A DNA stretch of 64,000 bases from Planctomycetota bacterium. GTDB lineage: Bacteria > Planctomycetota > Planctomycetia > Planctomycetales > Planctomycetaceae. Made by a program: the position numbers and the translations under genes. Shown here in pieces: positions 35,466 to 43,639 of this stretch. The DNA lies in NCBI GenBank assembly GCA_016872645.1, contig VGZH01000023.1, positions 1-64,000 of the forward strand. The letters are read 5' to 3'. Each line of letters starts with the position of its first letter. Position 1 is the stretch's first letter. The notes below the pieces were generated by a model. It worked only from the letters and a program-made list of their open reading frames with translations. It had not been told where the DNA came from and did not search any database.

Positions 35466-35571
35466 GGAAAATGACGAATCAGAAAGTATCGAATGACGAA
35501 GGAAGCTTAAACGACGAATAGCCAAGTGCCATCGCAACTGCAGAGCGAATTCGTCATTCGTGCTTCGTCAG
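35466..35571. repeat. GACGAA-rich repeat between convergent genes
   Basis: It contains ATGACGAATC, GAATGACGAAGG and ACGACGAATA on one side, and the reverse complement (ATTCGTCATTCGTGCTTCGTC) on the other, giving an overall inverted arrangement. The same units recur at 39690-39812. It fills the gap between the stops of two convergent genes. Confidence 0.65.
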
Positions 35572-37758
35572 TCACTTCAGCGAATCGCGAATCGCTTCGA
35601 CTCGCGGCAAATTGATGTTGGGGGGCTGGAACTTGACCAGCCAGTCGGCATCGGCGCGGGCCTGGTCGAGCCGTTTGGTGAAGGCTCCGATTTCGAGCCG
35701 CATCGCCCGGTAGTCACCGTCTTCAGGGTTCAGCGTCAGGATCGTGTCGACGTAGCGGTACATCGACTCGGCGTCCTTTTCGTCCTGAGCGCGTCGCAGC
35801 AGGTTGCTCAGCATCCGGATCAGGATGTCACGGGGCTTGGCGGTTGCGAAGTGTTCTTCGCGAGCGGGGCGGCCGCTGTTTTTAAAAACCCGCTCTTCGG
35901 CTTCTTTTCGAGTCAGCGCGATTCCCCCGTCGAAGACGTCGATGATTTGTGATTCTCCCTCTTTGGGTTCGTACCGAGCGACAAACTGACCCGGTAGGCC
36001 GACTCCGACAAGGTTCAAGCCGACTCGGCGACCGAGTTCGATGTACAAGACCGAGAGAGTGATCGGCATCCCCTCCCGATCGTCGATGACCTCGTTGAGA
36101 TGGTTGTTCGAGCGGGCGTAGTAGTTCAGTCGGCCGCCATGAAAGCCGAGTTCCTCGAAAAAGAATTTCTTGAGTGCGGCGAGCTTCGCGGCGTCATCGG
36201 CATCGGCCGTGAACATTTTCTTCAGGTCCAACGCAAGGTCGTCGATCGCGTGACAGTAGTCCGCGACGACGAGTTCCTCGTTGTCGAGCGCAGCGATCCA
36301 GAGTGCGGCGGCCAGCAGGTCGATCTTGGCGTCCTCTTTGCCTTCGACGAGCGAACGCAACTCGGCCTGCACCTTTTTGACGTGCACGTCGCCAGCGAGC
36401 TGCCGCAGCCGCTCGGCCTGTTGTTCAAGTTCTTTGGCCTTCTCACGCAACACAGTGCTGGCGACTGCGCCATCGGGAGTGAGTTGCTTGAGCACCTCCT
36501 CGGCCGCTGCCTGCTTCGGCGAAATGTCCTTGACGAGATCACCGATTCGCCTGGTCGTCTCTGAGGTAACCTTCTGCGAGTCGAGTTCGGTCGAGATGCG
36601 GAAGCTGCGGAACTCGGCTTCGGTGTGCCGAAACTTTGCGAGGCCGACTTGTCCGCCAGACAGCACGTCATCCGTCGATTCGATGACCTGCGTACCGTTG
36701 ACGAAGCAGATCATCCGGTCCTTCTCCACGCGGACCTTGATCTCGTTCCATTCGTTGGGCCGATACTCGTCGGTGCGGATCTCTTTGAGAACCTGCCAAT
36801 CGGTCACCACCGGGCCGTCGAAGCGGCTGAGCCGGAATCCGCCGCTGCTCGGATAAAATCCGTAGTGTTTGTCATTGCCGTCGGCATGAAACACGAGGCC
36901 CGCCGCTCCGTCTTCGGGCGAGAACTTCACGTTGACCGAAACCTCGAACGGCTTTTCCGGCACCGCTTGCTTCGACAGGCACAATGATCGTCCGCCGAAG
37001 CCTTGCCCCAGGCCTTCGACCGCGATGCGGCCGGCTCGCTGACGCCAGCGTGCTCCGAACAGCGGCGTCCAATCGCGCGGATTGAGTTGCCCGATCGTCA
37101 GCCAGCGCGACATCAGTACCGGATTCGGTTTCTCCAGCAGTGGCTTCAGCGAGTTCACGGAGATCGCGAAGCCCAGGTTGTCGGTCACGAGCGACTTGAG
37201 CGTAATGATGCCGAGCACTTTCCCGTTGCGATCGACGAGTGGCCCGCCGCTGTTTCCCTGCTCGATTGGCATCGCCAGTTGCAGCATGGACCGGCCGTCG
37301 ATCTCCCGTTGGCCACTGACGATCCCCTCGACCACGCTGTGCTTCAAGCCGCGCGGGTTGCCCATCGCCACGACCGGCTGTCCGTCCTTCGCCTTCGTCG
37401 CGTCACCCAGTTCAAGCGGCTTAAGCCCCTTCTGATCGATCTTCACGACGGCCAAATCCAGTTGTCGATCCGATGCTCGAATCTCGATGACGTCACGCTT
37501 GGTCCCATCCGCGAACTGCACCGAGATCGGCCGTCCTTCACCGATGACGTGAAAGTTCGTCGCGATCAATCCGTCCTCGCTGACAACGAATCCGGTGCCG
37601 AGTCCCTCTTGCTTGCCATCTCGGCCGGTGAACGTGATGACCACGATTGACGGCTTGAGTTCAGCGACAAGATCGGCAGTTGTGCGGTCTTCTGCAAAGC
37701 CACTCCATGGAACAAAGGCGAAAACGAATGCCAGCATCAGCAGATCACGTGAGAACAT
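35572..37758 (-). CDS. HtrA-like serine protease / LamG-like / SirB1-type fusion
   Basis: A 728-residue exported protein with a signal peptide at 1-22. Residues about 28-210 form a trypsin-like domain with a complete triad: ATNFHVIG (His), RQLDLAVVKID (Asp) and EQGNSGGPLV (Ser). Residues about 230-400 look like a beta-sandwich 3-keto-disaccharide-hydrolase/LamG-type domain (GAAGLVFHADGNDKHYGFYP). From about 480 there is a SirB1/transglutaminase-like region (NNHLNEVIDDREGMPITLSV and GLPGQFVARYEP) with TPR-like helices at the end (RYVDTILTLNPEDGDY). No PDZ domain was seen, unlike HtrA/DegP. It probably acts in the periplasm. The three parts occur separately in other bacteria; this combination is unusual to me. 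Confidence 0.8.
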   Translation of the reverse strand: MFSRDLLMLAFVFAFVPWSGFAEDRTTADLVAELKPSIVVITFTGRDGKQEGLGTGFVVSEDGLIATNFHVIGEGRPISVQFADGTKRDVIEIRASDRQLDLAVVKIDQKGLKPLELGDATKAKDGQPVVAMGNPRGLKHSVVEGIVSGQREIDGRSMLQLAMPIEQGNSGGPLVDRNGKVLGIITLKSLVTDNLGFAISVNSLKPLLEKPNPVLMSRWLTIGQLNPRDWTPLFGARWRQRAGRIAVEGLGQGFGGRSLCLSKQAVPEKPFEVSVNVKFSPEDGAAGLVFHADGNDKHYGFYPSSGGFRLSRFDGPVVTDWQVLKEIRTDEYRPNEWNEIKVRVEKDRMICFVNGTQVIESTDDVLSGGQVGLAKFRHTEAEFRSFRISTELDSQKVTSETTRRIGDLVKDISPKQAAAEEVLKQLTPDGAVASTVLREKAKELEQQAERLRQLAGDVHVKKVQAELRSLVEGKEDAKIDLLAAALWIAALDNEELVVADYCHAIDDLALDLKKMFTADADDAAKLAALKKFFFEELGFHGGRLNYYARSNNHLNEVIDDREGMPITLSVLYIELGRRVGLNLVGVGLPGQFVARYEPKEGESQIIDVFDGGIALTRKEAEERVFKNSGRPAREEHFATAKPRDILIRMLSNLLRRAQDEKDAESMYRYVDTILTLNPEDGDYRAMRLEIGAFTKRLDQARADADWLVKFQPPNINLPRVEAIRDSLK

Positions 37759-37810: not shown

Positions 37811-38833
37811 TCACTTAGCCGCCACTTTGTAAATCCGCACGGCGTTGTCGTGGAACAGTTTCTTTTGCCAATCGAGCGGTTTGTCTTTCACGATTTCCTT
37901 GAGCGCAGCAATCCAATCGGCCAGCGGAGCGGTCAGTGTGCAGACAGGCCAGTCGCCGCCAAAGAAGCAACGATCGATGCCGAAGGTGTCGATACAAAGG
38001 AAAATGACTTCGGCCAGATCGGAGGGCTTCCAGGCGTTCGGCTTGGCAGTCGCGACGATCCCGGAGATCTTGCAGTAGGTGTTCTCGCGGGCGGCTGCGG
38101 CTTTCATCCCCTTCAGCCATGCTTCGCGGAGAGCCTTGTCATCGGACTGAGCCGGCATATTGCCGCAGTGATCGACGACCAGTGTTGTCTTGGGGCATAG
38201 CTCGCCCAGCTTGGCTCCGTCACCGATCTCAGCGGGTCGCATGCAGAGATCGAAACTCTTGCCCATGTCACCGAGCCGTTTGACGTTGTCGACGAACGTC
38301 TTTTCAAGGCACATCCCTTGCGGCCGATCCGGATCGTGCAGCACGGTACGGACGCCGTTGATCCGATTGTTAGTTGCGAACGGCTGCATGTACTTCGCAA
38401 ACTCGGCCGACTGCGGCGAGCCTCCGATGATCGCACCGCACATCGGGTTGTCCTTCTTGCCGCAGAGGTCGAGGACGTATTCCGCCTCGGCGGTCTGCTG
38501 CGACGGATCGACGTTGACCTCCATGTAGACCGTCTTCGTGACTTTGTGCGGGCCGAGCAGTTTTAAGTAGTCGGACATCAGGAAGCTGTGTCTGAGCGAA
38601 TCGACGCCGTCTCCTTTCAGCCACGGCAATTTGAACTTGGTCAAATCCCACAGATGTTGATGCGTGTCGCAGATCGCCAAGTCATTCTGATTCACGGTAC
38701 CCTCTTTCTTCGGAGCCGCCCGTAAGAGTTGCTGTTGTTTGGCTTTCTCCTGAGCCACCAGTGACGTGGCTGAACCGGCGACGGCGACACTTGCGGCGGC
38801 GGACAGAAAATTTCGTCGAGTCAATTCGGACAT
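37811..38833 (-). CDS. Tat-exported amidohydrolase (fuconolactonase-like)
   Basis: A 340-residue amidohydrolase-2 family protein. The Tat signal LTRRNFLSAAA is at 4-14. ICDTHQHLWDL near residue 54 gives the metal-binding H-x-H. The catalytic region continues with LVVDHCGNMP near 220 and RCFFGGDWPVC near 285, where the Asp completes the site. It is probably a lactonase or decarboxylase-like hydrolase of sugar-derived compounds. Being exported, it may act on environmental substrates. It is followed on the same strand by the HtrA-like fusion, 52 bases away. Confidence 0.82.
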   Translation of the reverse strand: MSELTRRNFLSAAASVAVAGSATSLVAQEKAKQQQLLRAAPKKEGTVNQNDLAICDTHQHLWDLTKFKLPWLKGDGVDSLRHSFLMSDYLKLLGPHKVTKTVYMEVNVDPSQQTAEAEYVLDLCGKKDNPMCGAIIGGSPQSAEFAKYMQPFATNNRINGVRTVLHDPDRPQGMCLEKTFVDNVKRLGDMGKSFDLCMRPAEIGDGAKLGELCPKTTLVVDHCGNMPAQSDDKALREAWLKGMKAAAARENTYCKISGIVATAKPNAWKPSDLAEVIFLCIDTFGIDRCFFGGDWPVCTLTAPLADWIAALKEIVKDKPLDWQKKLFHDNAVRIYKVAAK

Positions 38834-38897: not shown

Positions 38898-39134
38898 TCA
38901 ATCCTGGCCCGGCGAAGCCAGTTCGCGTTCGACGCGAGCGAAGACCTCGTTGAGCCTGTTCGTGGCGTCGAGCAGCATCTTGACCAGCGGGTCGAGCGGC
39001 GCGAGGTGGTTGTCCTCGAAGTTCTGAGCGTTGTCGTCTTTCCAATGCTCTTTGGTCAGCTCCCACGCCTGAATTAATTCGACGTGAGCTTTGTAGAGCT
39101 TGGTGCTATCAACGGAGAGATCGGCGACTCGCAT
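38898..39134 (-). CDS. Small helical protein, possibly WXG100-like
   Basis: A 78-residue, fully alpha-helical, acidic protein. I do not recognise a family with confidence. A Trp-rich mid-section (AWELTKEHWKDDNAQNFEDN) followed by HLAPLDPLVKMLLDATNRL and a second amphipathic helix is reminiscent of the helix-turn-helix hairpins of WXG100/ESX-type proteins, although a strict W-x-G is absent. It starts 21 bases after the stop of the 39156-39677 gene and is almost certainly in the same operon. The function is unknown. Confidence 0.65.
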   Translation of the reverse strand: MRVADLSVDSTKLYKAHVELIQAWELTKEHWKDDNAQNFEDNHLAPLDPLVKMLLDATNRLNEVFARVERELASPGQD

Positions 39135-39140
39135 GGCTTC

Positions 39141-39179
39141 GAGAGGGGTGAGGGGTTAGGGATTAGTGACTGGGGGCGG
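39141..39179. repeat. GGGGTTAGGGATTAG-type repeat at a gene 3' end
   Basis: GGGGTGAGGGGTTAGGGATT on the plus strand overlaps the stop codon of the coiled-coil gene. The reverse complement (AATCCCTAACCCCTCACCCC) resembles the segment at 46279-46315. Confidence 0.5.
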
Positions 39180-39677
39180 AACTGGCTCTTCGGCGGCAGA
39201 TTCAATTTCGGCGTAGGCCTCGATGGCCAGGATCATTCGTTCGAGCGTGGCGATCGTCTTGGCGAAATCCGCTTCGATGTAGCGCTGTAAGCCGCCGCGA
39301 CGGCCGTCGAACTCGTCGATTTCGTGCCGCACCAACGAGCACCAGCGAGCACAAGCCTCGACCTTCTCTTGGGCCGTCTCCAGACGCTTTTTGGCGGCTT
39401 CCAATGCCAGCTTTTCTTCGTAGCAAGTGGGTCGATGGTCGCCGACCGTGCGCATCTTGCACTTTTCCAAATCGGCGCGTGCTTGCGCGATGACGTCAAA
39501 ACTGCGGAGCATGTACTGCTTCCAAAAGTTTGGCCGGTCGTGCTCGACCCAATCGAGAAATCCGATCGTCTGCTGCTGCAATGACGCTGTGACATCCATC
39601 GCGACTCCCGCGAACTCCAGCAGTTTCACTCGAAAGGCTCGCATGGCATCGAGTGAACGGACATTGGCTTGCGACAT
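39156..39677 (-). CDS. Coiled-coil protein of unknown function
   Basis: About 173 residues, helical throughout. The ATG at 39677 starts at MSQANVRSL; the frame extends back to 39755 but over repeat DNA. A long charged coiled-coil region (CYEEKLALEAAKKRLETAQE near 88-107) follows a Trp-containing segment (FLDWVEHDRPNFWKQY near 41). The final residues PPVTNP are encoded by the ATTAGTGACTGGG repeat at 39141-39179, so the natural C-terminus may have been replaced. It is coupled to the 78-residue protein downstream. No enzymatic motif was seen. Confidence 0.65.
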   Translation of the reverse strand: MSQANVRSLDAMRAFRVKLLEFAGVAMDVTASLQQQTIGFLDWVEHDRPNFWKQYMLRSFDVIAQARADLEKCKMRTVGDHRPTCYEEKLALEAAKKRLETAQEKVEACARWCSLVRHEIDEFDGRRGGLQRYIEADFAKTIATLERMILAIEAYAEIESAAEEPVPPPVTNP

Positions 39678-39689
39678 GAAGCACCGCAG

Positions 39690-39812
39690 AAAGGACGAAG
39701 GACCAAAGACCCAATGACGAAAGAATAACAAGTGTCGAAGCTCAAGTGACGGCATTCGTCATTCGAAAGTCGTCATTCCTTCGTCATCAGATGCTTCGTC
39801 ATCTGTCATTCG
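39690..39812. repeat. GACGAA-rich repeat overlapping the helicase 3' end
   Basis: Units AAGGACGAAGGACC, AATGACGAAAG, then inverted ATTCGTCATTCG, TCGTCATTCCTTCGTCATC and CTTCGTCATCTGTCATTCG. It is the same unit family as 35466-35571. The part 39759-39812 is read as the last 17 codons of the DinG-like helicase gene. Confidence 0.7.
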
Positions 39813-41879
39813 CAACGACACCGGATCGATGAGTACCTGGCACTCCGGCAGGCTGTCGAGGAACAGTTGGCCGTAGCGTTTTGTGCGAATGCGGGGGTCG
39901 AGGATGACCACTTGGCCCGTGTCGCTGCTGCGGCGGATCAGGCGGCCGAAGCCTTGCTTGAGTTTGATGATCGCTTCGGGAAGCGAGTACTCGAAGAACG
40001 GTTTGCCGCCGCGAGCTTCGATCGCTTCCATCCGAGCTTCTTGCAGCGGATGGTCGGGGACGGCGAACGGCAGCTTGGTGATGATCACGTTTTGCAGAGC
40101 GTCGCCGGGGACGTCGACTCCCTGCCAGAAACTGTCGGCCCCGAACAGAACCGCTCGCGGGTCGTTGCGAAACTTGTCGAGCAGCATCGTTCTTTGCAGC
40201 CCGGCACCTTGGCAGAGCAGCGTGTAGTTGTGCTCGGCGAACCATGGTGTCAGCCGGTTCGCGCAGGATTGCAACAGCTTGTAGCTGGTGAAGAGCACAA
40301 AGGCTCGGCCGGAGGTTGCATCGACGTGTTGTTTGATCTTCTCGCAGAGTTCGGTTTCGAACTCAGCAGGCAGGTCATTTGGATCGGGCATGCGGCCGTG
40401 CAGGATCAATTTGGCTTGTCGCCGGAAGTCGAAGGGGCTGCCGAGCTTTTTCTCCAGCGACTTCGTCAGGCCGATCCGGGCCTTCGCGTAATCGAAGTTT
40501 TCGCGGCCGGTCGAGAGGGTCGCGCTGGTCAGGATCACGGTCGGGATCTTCGCGAACAGTTCGTCGCGGAGGACGGGGCCGACATCGATTGGACAGCTGA
40601 TTAACTTCGTGTTCTTGAATTTTCCGGTGTTCCTTTCGGTCCAGTAGACCGAGCCTTCGACTTCTTGCCGTACCCAGCTTTGCAGGCTGATGCCAAGCTG
40701 CGTGCATCGAGTCGCGGCGGCGGTGTATTCGAGCTTGTCACCCTCCTTCGACAGAGTGGCACCGTAATTGTTGAGTTGCTTGGCCAATTCGAACAGTTTT
40801 GGCGAGACGTTGTTCTCGAAGGTTGGCGGTGTGCGGAGCCGGCCGTTGCTGCCGCTGAATTTCGATTGGAAGAACTCCAACTCCGAAAAAAATTCGGTGA
40901 CCTTGTGCCGTGTTTCGTGGACCGCCAATTGGGATTTCAGCAACGCGCGCGGGGCGAACAGCCCCTTCATCTGGCGATCGTTCCAGAGTTTGTTGAGTTG
41001 GTAGTTGATCTGTCCGCTGCTGATCGAGAGTCCCAGATGATCGCCGGCAACCGCTTCGACCGTGTGGGCCTCGTCGAGCACCGCAATGTCGTAATCTGGC
41101 AGGATGTTCCCTCCCTCGCGGCGCACGGCGAGGTCCGAGAAGAACAACGCGTGATTGACGACGAGGATGTCAGCGTTCCAGACTCGGCTGCGAGCCTTGA
41201 AGTAGTGGCAGTCTTTGAAGGTCGGACATTTCTTGCCCAGGCAGTTGTCGCCATCACTGACGACTTCGTCCCACACGGGGCCGAGCGGTTTGAATGCCAA
41301 ATCCTGCAAGCTTCCTTCGGTCGTCTTCGGTGCCCACTCGCCAAGTTGGCGCAGTTGCTCGGACTCTTGCGGATCACCGAACAGGATCGGTCCCCGCTCG
41401 AGGGCCAGTTTCATACGTCGCAGGCTAATGTAATTCGACCGGCCTTTGACCAGTACCGTCGAGAACTCCACGGGCAGTACGGCTTTCAAGAACGGGATGT
41501 CGCGCGTAAAGATCTGCTCTTGCAGCGCGATCGTGTGCGTCGAGATAACGACTCGACGCCGCTTGTCTTTTTTCGCGGCGGCACTGAACGGGACCGAGTT
41601 CGGTCCCCCATCATCATCGTCATCGACATCTCGGCGAGCCGCCGGCGATTCCTTGGCAGTTTTTGATTGCGCTTCGGCGAGCGCCAGGATGGCTGGAACG
41701 AGGTAAGCGAAGCTTTTGCCAACGCCTGTACCGGCTTCGACGATCAAGTGTGACTGTGTGCGGATGGCTCGCTCGACCGACTGTGCCATCTCCAACTGCT
41801 GTGGGCGAGACTCATAAGTCGGCAGCCGCCGCGCGATGTGTCCCTCATCGCCGAGGATCGAACTTACGTCAAGGCTCAC
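39759..41879 (-). CDS. dinG: DinG/XPD-type ATP-dependent DNA helicase
   Basis: About 706 residues. Walker A is EAGTGVGKS (residues 48-56). A four-Cys Fe-S-like region lies at about 220-235 (DNCLGKKCPTFKDCHYF). The DEAH box is VLDEAH near 270, and the C-terminal motifs include FTSYKLLQS and GADSFWQGVDVPG, with FGRLIRR as motif VI. It unwinds DNA 5'-3' and belongs to the DinG/YoaA group. The GTG at 41879 overlaps the TGA of the phosphatase gene upstream (GTGA), so the two are coupled; the earlier TTG at 41906 lies inside that gene. The acidic tail RMTDDEASDDEGMTTFE is repeat-encoded. Confidence 0.88.
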   Translation of the reverse strand: MSLDVSSILGDEGHIARRLPTYESRPQQLEMAQSVERAIRTQSHLIVEAGTGVGKSFAYLVPAILALAEAQSKTAKESPAARRDVDDDDDGGPNSVPFSAAAKKDKRRRVVISTHTIALQEQIFTRDIPFLKAVLPVEFSTVLVKGRSNYISLRRMKLALERGPILFGDPQESEQLRQLGEWAPKTTEGSLQDLAFKPLGPVWDEVVSDGDNCLGKKCPTFKDCHYFKARSRVWNADILVVNHALFFSDLAVRREGGNILPDYDIAVLDEAHTVEAVAGDHLGLSISSGQINYQLNKLWNDRQMKGLFAPRALLKSQLAVHETRHKVTEFFSELEFFQSKFSGSNGRLRTPPTFENNVSPKLFELAKQLNNYGATLSKEGDKLEYTAAATRCTQLGISLQSWVRQEVEGSVYWTERNTGKFKNTKLISCPIDVGPVLRDELFAKIPTVILTSATLSTGRENFDYAKARIGLTKSLEKKLGSPFDFRRQAKLILHGRMPDPNDLPAEFETELCEKIKQHVDATSGRAFVLFTSYKLLQSCANRLTPWFAEHNYTLLCQGAGLQRTMLLDKFRNDPRAVLFGADSFWQGVDVPGDALQNVIITKLPFAVPDHPLQEARMEAIEARGGKPFFEYSLPEAIIKLKQGFGRLIRRSSDTGQVVILDPRIRTKRYGQLFLDSLPECQVLIDPVSLRMTDDEASDDEGMTTFE

Positions 41880-43639
41880 GGCAGCCTCTGGAAACCGACA
41901 ATACAAATATCGTCGCTCTGTGGGCGGCCCTCGACGAACGCTTCGACATCGTCAACCACGACTTTGACGGTCTCGTTGATATTTTGCGGAGCTTTGGCGA
42001 ACACGCCGCTCAGACGCTGGTTGCCGTAGATCTCTTTCTGTGTCCGAATCGCCTCGGTCACGCCATCAGTGAAAACCAGCCAGGATTCACCGGGACTCAG
42101 GTCAAACGTCGAAACTTGAAACTTCTGATCAGCCAAAATTCCCAGTGGCATTCCCGATTCGGCCTGTCCGATTGATTCGACCTTTCCGGTAGCGCCATCG
42201 CGACGCAACGGTGCTAGGTGTCCGGCGTTGATCAACGTCAGTCGATGATTCTTCGGATCGATGACCATGATCAAGCAGGTGATGAATCGGTGCCCCAATC
42301 CACTGACGGAGATTTCCGCATTCAAGCCGGTCATCGCGGTCGCCAAGTCGGGTTGGCTAATCAAGTGATAGCGGACCGACGAATACAGTCGAGCCATCAG
42401 CAATGCGGCGGGAACCCCTTTTCCAGCAACGTCCGCCAAGGACAGCGCAACGCAGCCGCTCGGCAGTTCGATGTAGTCGAAGTAGTCGCCGCCAACGCGC
42501 TGCGCGGGTTCGTAATAATCGGAGAACTCATATCCCGGCAGTTTGGGCCGCGCGTGAGGCAAGAAACCGAGTTGCACCTGTGTGGCGAACTCCAGATCGC
42601 GTTCCATGTCGCGCTTTTTGACCGCTTGGTGGTACAGATGCGCGTTTTCGACGGACAAGGCGACTTGCATAGCCACGCTGATGAGCAGGTCCAAGTCTTC
42701 GTCGCGGAATTGTGCGCCAACGTCGTTGGTGGTGATTTGAATGACTCCCAACGGTCCCAACTCTCGGGAAACCAAGGGAGCGCAGATCATCGAACGAATT
42801 CGCAACGACGAGAGACTCTCGCTCGCTCGAAAGCGGCTGTCCTCGAGAGCGTTCTCGCTCAGAATGCCTTCGCTGGTTTCCAAGGCCTTACGAACGATGG
42901 TCATGCTGACGTGGACTTGATCGTCCGCTTCGGTCTTGCGCCGCGTCTTGGTGGCTTTGACGACCAGCTTCTTCTTCTCCTCTTCGCGGAGCATGATGAA
43001 GCCTTCGTCCGCCTGTTGGAAAATTCGGAACAAGGTTTCGAGCGTCTTGTCCAAAACTTGATCGAGTCCCAGCGAGCCCGCGAGGACTTTGGTGATTTCC
43101 AAAATCGCCTTGAGCTTCATCTCCGGCTTTACGCTCAGTCGCAAGTCGGACGACGAACTGCCGGCGTCGAGCGTGCTGATGATTGACGAGTGATCTTCCT
43201 CATCAAACTCGTCATCCGTGTTCACTACTCGGGTATCGGTTTGCGGCACGCCCTGATCATGGATTTCTTCGAGCGGTGATCGGGGCCCGACCTTGATCCC
43301 TTCGTCTCCGACGATCGCGCCCGGTTTCAGCAGATTGCTGTCGGTCGGAGCCACCAGCAAAAAACGAAATGCAAAATCACAAACGCGGATGATGTCCTTG
43401 TCTTTGAGTTGACGCCGACCCTCCACGACGGATTTGTTCACATGTGTCCCGTTACGGCTGCGAAGATCTTCCACGAAGTATTCGCCTTGGACGTCGACGA
43501 TCTGGGAGTGATAGCGACTCACTGCGGCGTTATCTAACACCACTTGGCAATGCGGATGTCGGCCAAACACGGTCCGTTCGGCTTGCACTTCGATCAATTG
43601 ACCGGGGTTTTTCCCCTTGAGCACTTCCAAGACAGCCAC
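41876..43639 (-). CDS. FHA-GAF-PP2C (SpoIIE-type) protein phosphatase
   Basis: A 587-residue signalling protein. FHA domain at 1-95 (FGRHPHCQVVLDN, VSRYHSQI, RSRNGTHVN). GAF domain at about 180-335 (LIRSMICAPL-like block near 285). SpoIIE/PP2C serine phosphatase domain at about 360-585: GGDYFDYIEL near 390 and ALSLADVAGKGVPAALLMA near 409 supply the metal-binding Asp residues, and WLVFTDGVTEA near 540 the third. It probably dephosphorylates Ser/Thr targets and is steered by phosphothreonine binding and a ligand or redox cue at the GAF domain. It lies 180 bases downstream of a Ser/Thr kinase and overlaps the helicase start. Confidence 0.9.
   Translation of the reverse strand: MAVLEVLKGKNPGQLIEVQAERTVFGRHPHCQVVLDNAAVSRYHSQIVDVQGEYFVEDLRSRNGTHVNKSVVEGRRQLKDKDIIRVCDFAFRFLLVAPTDSNLLKPGAIVGDEGIKVGPRSPLEEIHDQGVPQTDTRVVNTDDEFDEEDHSSIISTLDAGSSSSDLRLSVKPEMKLKAILEITKVLAGSLGLDQVLDKTLETLFRIFQQADEGFIMLREEEKKKLVVKATKTRRKTEADDQVHVSMTIVRKALETSEGILSENALEDSRFRASESLSSLRIRSMICAPLVSRELGPLGVIQITTNDVGAQFRDEDLDLLISVAMQVALSVENAHLYHQAVKKRDMERDLEFATQVQLGFLPHARPKLPGYEFSDYYEPAQRVGGDYFDYIELPSGCVALSLADVAGKGVPAALLMARLYSSVRYHLISQPDLATAMTGLNAEISVSGLGHRFITCLIMVIDPKNHRLTLINAGHLAPLRRDGATGKVESIGQAESGMPLGILADQKFQVSTFDLSPGESWLVFTDGVTEAIRTQKEIYGNQRLSGVFAKAPQNINETVKVVVDDVEAFVEGRPQSDDICIVGFQRLP

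Follow-up and report, generated by a model that had tools for sequence, protein, structure and literature searches.

Two adjacent small genes, P1 and P2, lie within the window (the whole stretch of planctomycete DNA that was analysed, 64,000 nucleotides). Their sequences, their predicted folds and analogy with known systems make it probable that they encode two of the four components of a type-VII-like (HP0062/EccC-like) Planctomycetota export system. By sequence comparison, this four-gene system is real, widespread, conserved and distantly related to Gram-positive type VII secretion. In particular, sequence comparison and predicted folds establish the gene order, the co-occurrence across genomes, the purifying selection, the W-x-D motif, the hairpins and an ATPase related to EccC/YukB, while complex formation and export would follow by analogy with the LXG-Lap1-Lap2 and PE/PPE proteins. 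The preliminary description had treated the pair as a two-gene module; the pair is instead the central part of a cluster of four genes, of which the other two are located elsewhere in its own genome, and the earlier hunch named the right kind of system but underestimated its extent.

The P1 and P2 genes and their predicted folds

The layout given in the preliminary description, with open reading frames of 173 and 78 residues, 21 bases apart on one strand and flanked by amidohydrolase and helicase genes, was confirmed (Table 1). The longest P1 reading frame encodes 199 aa from an upstream start at 39755; the alignments of its relatives begin at the ATG at 39677, and the P1 start was placed there for that reason. 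Compared to 9 congeneric genomes, substitutions in both genes fall mostly at third codon positions. P1 differs from its counterpart in genome G011 at 12, 4 and 59 first, second and third positions (dN 0.054, dS 0.75), and P2 from its counterpart in genome G005 at 4, 0 and 11. This bias indicates that P1 and P2 are real genes, coding rather than chance reading frames, and by these comparisons they are under purifying selection. No Pfam, NCBIfam or PADLOC model matched P1 or P2 above its cut-off, and no named family was found for either.

Table 1. Positions in the window of the P1-P2 pair, its sequence features and its neighbours.
Feature	Position	Strand	Remarks
P1: 173-aa helical-hairpin protein, proposed carrier/substrate subunit	39156..39677	-	stop included
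P2: 78-aa short WXG100-like hairpin, proposed partner/targeting subunit	38898..39134	-	stop included
Spacer of 21 bases from P1 stop to P2 start	39135..39155	-	
P1 turn between both long helices, residues 76-85, around conserved RPxC	39423..39452	-	predicted structure and conservation
P2 W31-K-D33 motif at the helix-turn-helix bend	39036..39044	-	alignments and predicted structure
Amidohydro_2 protein, neighbour of the pair	37811-38833	same strand as pair	
DEAD/Helicase_C_2 helicase, neighbour of the pair	39759-41906	same strand as pair	

Synteny of the flanks was dropped as a line of evidence: the amidohydrolase is found in 3/9 and the helicase in 2/9 of the congeneric loci, which are 9 of the 13 loci searched and only 2.5-3.5 kb long. 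Elsewhere in the window, a single protein (35572-37758, minus strand) carries Trypsin_2, 3-keto-disaccharide hydrolase and Transglut_core2 domains, an unusual-looking fusion. Two genes upstream of the pair and on the same strand, an FHA-GAF-SpoIIE protein is encoded (41876-43639, minus strand); excerpts of PMC11217815 describe FHA and phosphatase genes as frequent companions of T7SS variants. Short intergenic repeats, ATGACGAA and TTCGTCAT, occur in several copies each at the helicase/P1 junction (39714-39805) and near 35.5 kb (35471-35553).

P1 is predicted to fold into two helices, spanning residues 9-75 and 86-162 (pLDDT 92.8, pTM 0.70), which form a hairpin of 67 and 77 residues with its turn around RPxC and no W-x-G. 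Past the conserved Tyr155, the tail is 8 to 95 residues long across 58 aligned sequences; in Planctomycetia, it is usually a short variable tail only. No toxin domain stands out in 49 aligned P1 proteins, judged by the first 25 of 40 Pfam families listed. An Imm33-like C-terminal domain, above the Pfam cut-off, occurs on three planctomycete P1 proteins (L198, L200 and L201), which places an immunity-type fold on a putative carrier.

Searches for solved relatives of P1 returned apparent chance matches when its profile was compared with PDB sequences (best E 0.0014, to a chimera, and many MHC chains), and no solved relative was found. The fold searches returned generic coiled coils (Smc arms, Vipp1 and YscO; Z 9-11) and no specific structural relative; because these matches are generic, no function is claimed from the fold. 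LXG, PE, PPE and EspG are absent among the P1 fold-search matches listed, which excludes nothing, and the LXG, Lap, PE and PPE families are absent among the matches listed for P1 and P2 (for the alignments, the first 25 families). Classification of P1 as a WXG100 protein was rejected; its N-terminus is only weakly aligned to the WXG100 profile (hhalign 20%), and its hairpin is far longer.

By sequence and predicted fold, P2 is a short WXG100-like hairpin with an invariant W-x-D. The hairpin (pLDDT 88.8) comprises helices at residues 6-28 and 34-44/47-73 with W31-x-D33 between them, and W31 and D33 are invariant (44/44 and 38/38 aligned sequences). Its four best rows in structural alignment are WXG100 chains (Z 7.6-7.9, rmsd 1.9-2.5 over 77 residues), with generic hairpins tied at Z 7.4, and its best Foldseek E-value is 1.5. 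Profile-profile comparison with the WXG100 set gave 72%, and the Pfam WXG100 model matched 10/44 P2 relatives at E<=0.1 (best 9e-5), with no match to the window's own P2. At E<=10, the WXG100 profile matched 54/88 P1 and 58/84 P2 segments, counts that include one gene repeated in overlapping loci, compared with 5 hits elsewhere among 13,391 segments. A WXG100 profile built by iteration took in both the P1 and P2 families and was discarded as drift-prone. The earlier likening of P2 to WXG100 proteins is supported by motif, and profile and predicted fold point the same way; calling it Trp-rich was overstated, as it has 2 Trp in 78 residues, though both are nearly or fully invariant.

A four-gene cluster in Planctomycetota

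Neighbour analysis of planctomycete homologues, proposed in the preliminary description, found the pair conserved and linked in relatives, where the order WXG100 (90 residues), P1, P2 and an FtsK/HerA ATPase of ~1330 residues is conserved across Planctomycetota. In a class-level sample of 38 regions, up to 20 kb long and picked for holding P1 or P2, all four genes lie in this order on one strand in 20/38. The other 18/38 are subsets of that order (P1-P2-ATPase 4, WXG-P1 4, P2 alone 3, P1 alone 2, WXG-P1-P2 2, P2-ATPase 2 and P1-P2 1), and none has mixed strands. Further, among 80 named loci found via the WXG100 protein, 34 have all four genes, 4 have WXG-P1-P2, 19 have WXG-P1 and 23 have WXG alone; for the 53 loci with >=6.5 kb downstream, the corresponding counts are 29, 1, 12 and 11. 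At the level of the phylum, 20 loci were chosen from the 60/392 genomes with P1, and they show all four genes in order in 16 cases, WXG-P1-P2 in 2, P1-P2-WXG in 1 and P1-P2 in 1.

Several loci depart from this arrangement. In locus L204 (7328-8545), the order P1-P2-WXG100 replaces WXG100-P1-P2, and there is no ATPase match in the 17-kb region. Four loci of one genus (L082, L083, L086 and L095) are second copies of the system with the order P1-P2-ATPase and no WXG100 gene within 20 kb at E<=1e-8, with one WXG100 match per genome. Three MAG records titled 'Candidatus Kuenenia stuttgartiensis' (L119, L120 and L121) carry a WXG100 gene that shares 98% identity with the one in the window's own genome, and their titles look wrong. 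The cluster has split in the window's genus; in the own genome it is dispersed, with the P1-P2 pair on contig C23, the WXG100 gene on C36 and the ATPase gene on C5.

Across 99 genomes (own included), P1 is present in 68, the specific WXG100 protein of 90 residues in 70, and the specific ~1330-residue ATPase in 72 (E<=1e-60). P2 was found in 57 by single-sequence search, a lower bound because its profile finds P2 beside P1 in genomes missed by that search (for example, at L087, L089, L090, L092, L111 and L113). All four genes occur in 55/99 genomes and none in 26/99. The ATPase accompanies P1 in 68/68 genomes, and P1 is absent from 27/27 genomes that lack the ATPase, so that the table of both, P1 only, ATPase only and neither reads 68, 0, 4 and 27 (Fisher 2e-20). 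Kinship among genomes inflates the Fisher values, and the argument therefore relies less on p-values than on how few exceptions there are. The four genomes with the ATPase and without P1 are G006, G009, G047 and G065. Two of these, G006 and G009, are congeneric and keep the ATPase and the WXG100 gene with P1 and P2 absent, which may reflect draft gaps or dispensability. Within the genus, both pair genes are present in 10/12 genomes (own included) and two lack both, and each part of the cluster occurs in between 10 and 12 of the 12 genomes. Most of the genomes searched have one copy each of P1 and P2. The preliminary description had held that a lack of conserved co-occurrence, or assignment of either protein to an unrelated family, would speak against it; the examination found co-occurrence conserved and no such assignment.

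The WXG100 gene of the window's own genome (G000:C36:3369-3638) scores 36.4 bits against a Pfam cut-off of 27.3, and 32/32 members of its family match Pfam WXG100 at E<=0.1. The protein has a W-R-D motif, and its profile finds HP0062 (3e-9) and then EsxB/EsxA as its best PDB relatives. A search of the genome for ESX/T7-like ATPase genes, also proposed beforehand, identified the FtsK/HerA ATPase, whose best solved relatives are EccC/YukB (3e-30 to 1e-21), with FtsK far behind (about 3e-7). Its Pfam domain is FtsK/SpoIIIE, and it falls under the NCBIfam cut-offs for both EccCa (104 bits vs 509) and EssC (84 vs 778); the PADLOC HerA and SspH models match part of it. In 27/27 relatives, a Walker A motif is present in the middle domain only (at the position of residue 804) and in neither of the other two domains. 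Most relatives have hydrophobic segments near residues 200-360, with peaks in the own protein starting at ~241 and ~277. A separate and much stronger FtsK/SpoIIIE domain hit lies on contig C19 of the same genome.

Searches of the own genome for accessory parts returned no YukC/EssB or YukD at E<=1, and EccB only far below its cut-off, where the EccB control is weak (over cut-off in 0/14 control genomes). The Y/F-xxx-D/E export arm was found in 0/38 WXG100 proteins, as YxxxD/E in 1/55 P2 proteins, and at the best aligned column in 15/58 P1 proteins.

Known systems and plasmid relatives

Among solved structures, the planctomycete WXG100 profile finds its best match in Helicobacter pylori HP0062 (PDB 3FX7, 2GTS), which has the same W-R-D bend; an excerpt of PMC3397514 describes it as a W-R-D WXG100 protein of a Gram-negative bacterium, clustered with an FtsK/SpoIIIE protein. 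Footnote 6 to Table 1 of a 2012 paper (PMC3482391) records a planctomycete 'solo WXG' with a distinct YueA-like ATPase that has 3 HerA/FtsK domains, only the middle one active, and calls these systems 'mobile versions of T7SS'. The ATPase studied here is alike in having Walker A solely in its middle domain (27/27), and, unlike the present analysis, the footnote as excerpted mentions neither P1 nor P2 and gives no gene order. In the open-licence literature searched, P1, P2, the gene order and the proposed carrier role were not found in print. These sources suggest that the planctomycete solo WXG and such an ATPase were prior knowledge, and that P1, P2, the gene order and the proposed carrier role are apparently new. 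In the earlier proposal of a candidate for an undescribed protein-interaction or secretion-linked unit, the link to a secretion-type ATPase proved strong, and the WXG100-ATPase part turned out to be already noted in planctomycetes by that footnote.

According to excerpts of PMC11217815, T7SSa/T7SSb and T7SSc-T7SSj are described in Actinomycetota and Bacillota; a WXG100 protein and an EccC/EssC-related ATPase are common to those systems and the planctomycete cluster. Unlike T7SSa-j, the cluster has a single-Walker-A ATPase, no export arm motif, and no YukD, YukC or EccB found. The LXG, Lap1/Lap2 and PE/PPE proteins covered by an excerpt of PMC9600955 resemble P1 and P2 in that an elongated helical domain of ~170-200 aa is encoded with small WXG100-like hairpins, and, in the LXG-Lap1-Lap2 complex and PE/PPE pairs, the bundling of the long domain with the hairpins is the export signal for an EccC/EssC-family ATPase. 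P1 differs from the LXG/PPE systems by its one 67+77-residue hairpin and by the absence of LXG, Lap, PE and PPE among the matches listed.

When 72,556 plasmids were searched by tblastn with the ATPase as query, 5 records matched, and all 5 were examined; the profile finds a WXG100 neighbour in 3/5 of these ATPase loci, and the Deinococcus plasmid is a fourth. A feline Helicobacter plasmid encodes a WXG100 protein, a coiled-coil protein with a WHH/colicin-DNase domain, a SUKH immunity protein, a 77-aa protein and the ATPase. The place that P1 takes in the planctomycete cluster is thus occupied here by genes for a nuclease and an immunity protein; the nuclease and adjacent SUKH gene are the sole plasmid cargo/immunity pair confirmed by Pfam, and the P1 profile does not match the nuclease protein. 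A Caballeronia plasmid encodes VWA, WXG100, a 436-residue coiled-coil protein, two small proteins and the ATPase; reading of its letters suggests a nuclease-like (ExK) C-terminus for the 436-residue protein, with no Pfam match. On the same plasmid (L194, 5513-15496), VWA, WXG100, coiled-coil protein, FtsK ATPase, CARF, VWA, PP2C and Ser/Thr kinase genes form one run.

On the Rhodococcus AH-ZY2 plasmid, the ATPase is found with a 314-residue protein, a 73-residue protein and WXG100. The 314-residue protein has weak P1 similarity (15 bits, the best among plasmids, against 12.6 for the best segment outside these families), and its letters, with no Pfam match, suggest a ParB-like C-terminus. The Deinococcus plasmid encodes the ATPase, a W-x-D WXG100-like protein, a second WXG100-like protein, a 326-residue coiled coil in the P1 slot with no toxin domain known to Pfam, and a 144-residue protein with P2-profile similarity. 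The Rhodococcus pseudokoreensis plasmid has no clear WXG100, P1 or P2, which counts against generality. A search of phages with the ATPase matched 30 records.

Carrier, adaptor or other roles

Long-helical proteins fill the P1 position in the plasmid relatives of other phyla, and one of them ends in a nuclease domain and has an immunity gene next to it; P1 is therefore most likely the carrier or substrate, with P2 and the WXG100 protein as its partners. In the proposed mechanism, P1, similar in size to the helical domain of an LXG or PPE protein, would form an elongated bundle of helices together with the WXG100 protein and P2; this bundle would dock on the membrane ATPase, and the ATPase would move P1, with or without its partners, and any C-terminal domain of P1 across the inner membrane. 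As the P1 tail is usually short and variable in Planctomycetia, the exported species there would be a toxin-less helical protein; the P1 position of the plasmid relatives can bear a nuclease. Counting against export are the missing accessory T7SS parts, the lack of an export arm, the lack of a solved P1 relative, the weak similarity of P1 to the plasmid proteins, the missing P1 and P2 of G006 and G009, and the absence of Walker A from two ATPase domains; moreover, the single-copy, toxin-less P1 of the own genome is unlike an effector arsenal.

Some of these observations would also suit P1 and P2 acting as non-exported adaptors or chaperones that feed unlinked substrates to the ATPase, like Lap- or EspG-type targeting factors, a tentative and rather doubtful proposal. 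Both are single-copy in most genomes, the P1 family is mostly without recognisable effector domains, and Lap1/Lap2, the WXG100-like partners of LXG, were not detected as secreted in the work excerpted from PMC9600955. However, the P1 slot bears C-terminal domains (the WHH nuclease of the Helicobacter plasmid and the Imm33-like domain of three planctomycetes), and P1 tails of 8 to 95 residues fit a carrier better than a pure chaperone. The copies found on plasmids, one of which includes a nuclease and an immunity gene, together with the footnote's 'mobile versions of T7SS' (PMC3482391), point toward an interbacterial or mobile conflict module that delivers polymorphic toxins; this is unlikely for the Planctomycetia cluster, which is single-copy in most genomes, occurs in 10 to 12 of 12 congeneric genomes, and has P1 proteins in which no toxin domain stands out among the families listed.

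It is quite improbable that the ATPase acts on DNA or the cell envelope in the manner of FtsK/HerA, with WXG100, P1 and P2 as structural or regulatory parts rather than parts of a secretion system. The FtsK/SpoIIIE domain, the partial HerA and SspH matches, and the failure to find EccB, YukC and YukD in the own genome agree with such a role, but T7SS ATPases are by far the closest relatives among solved structures, a separate and much stronger FtsK/SpoIIIE domain hit lies elsewhere in the genome, and a WXG100 protein belongs to the cluster. Finally, almost no credence can be given to an unrelated two-gene helical module that lies beside ATPase genes by chance in some relatives; the own-genome pair is on a contig other than those of the WXG100 and ATPase genes, yet phylum-wide co-occurrence and gene order contradict chance.

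For the four-component export system, the comparisons leave an even chance that it constitutes a distinct type-VII-like class beyond the classical systems of Gram-positive bacteria, with P1 as a general modular cargo-carrier domain; in Planctomycetota the class would be chromosomal, without toxins and mostly present in one copy, and on plasmids (of Pseudomonadota, Campylobacterota, Deinococcota and Actinomycetota) it would be mobile and sometimes nuclease-bearing. Type VII secretion has mostly been described from Gram-positive bacteria and mycobacteria, and a compact relative of four genes, carried by many planctomycetes, would be a testable secretion-like system in diderms of unusual cell biology. 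The system would define two unnamed protein families, and a minimal set of components with which to ask which type VII parts are essential.
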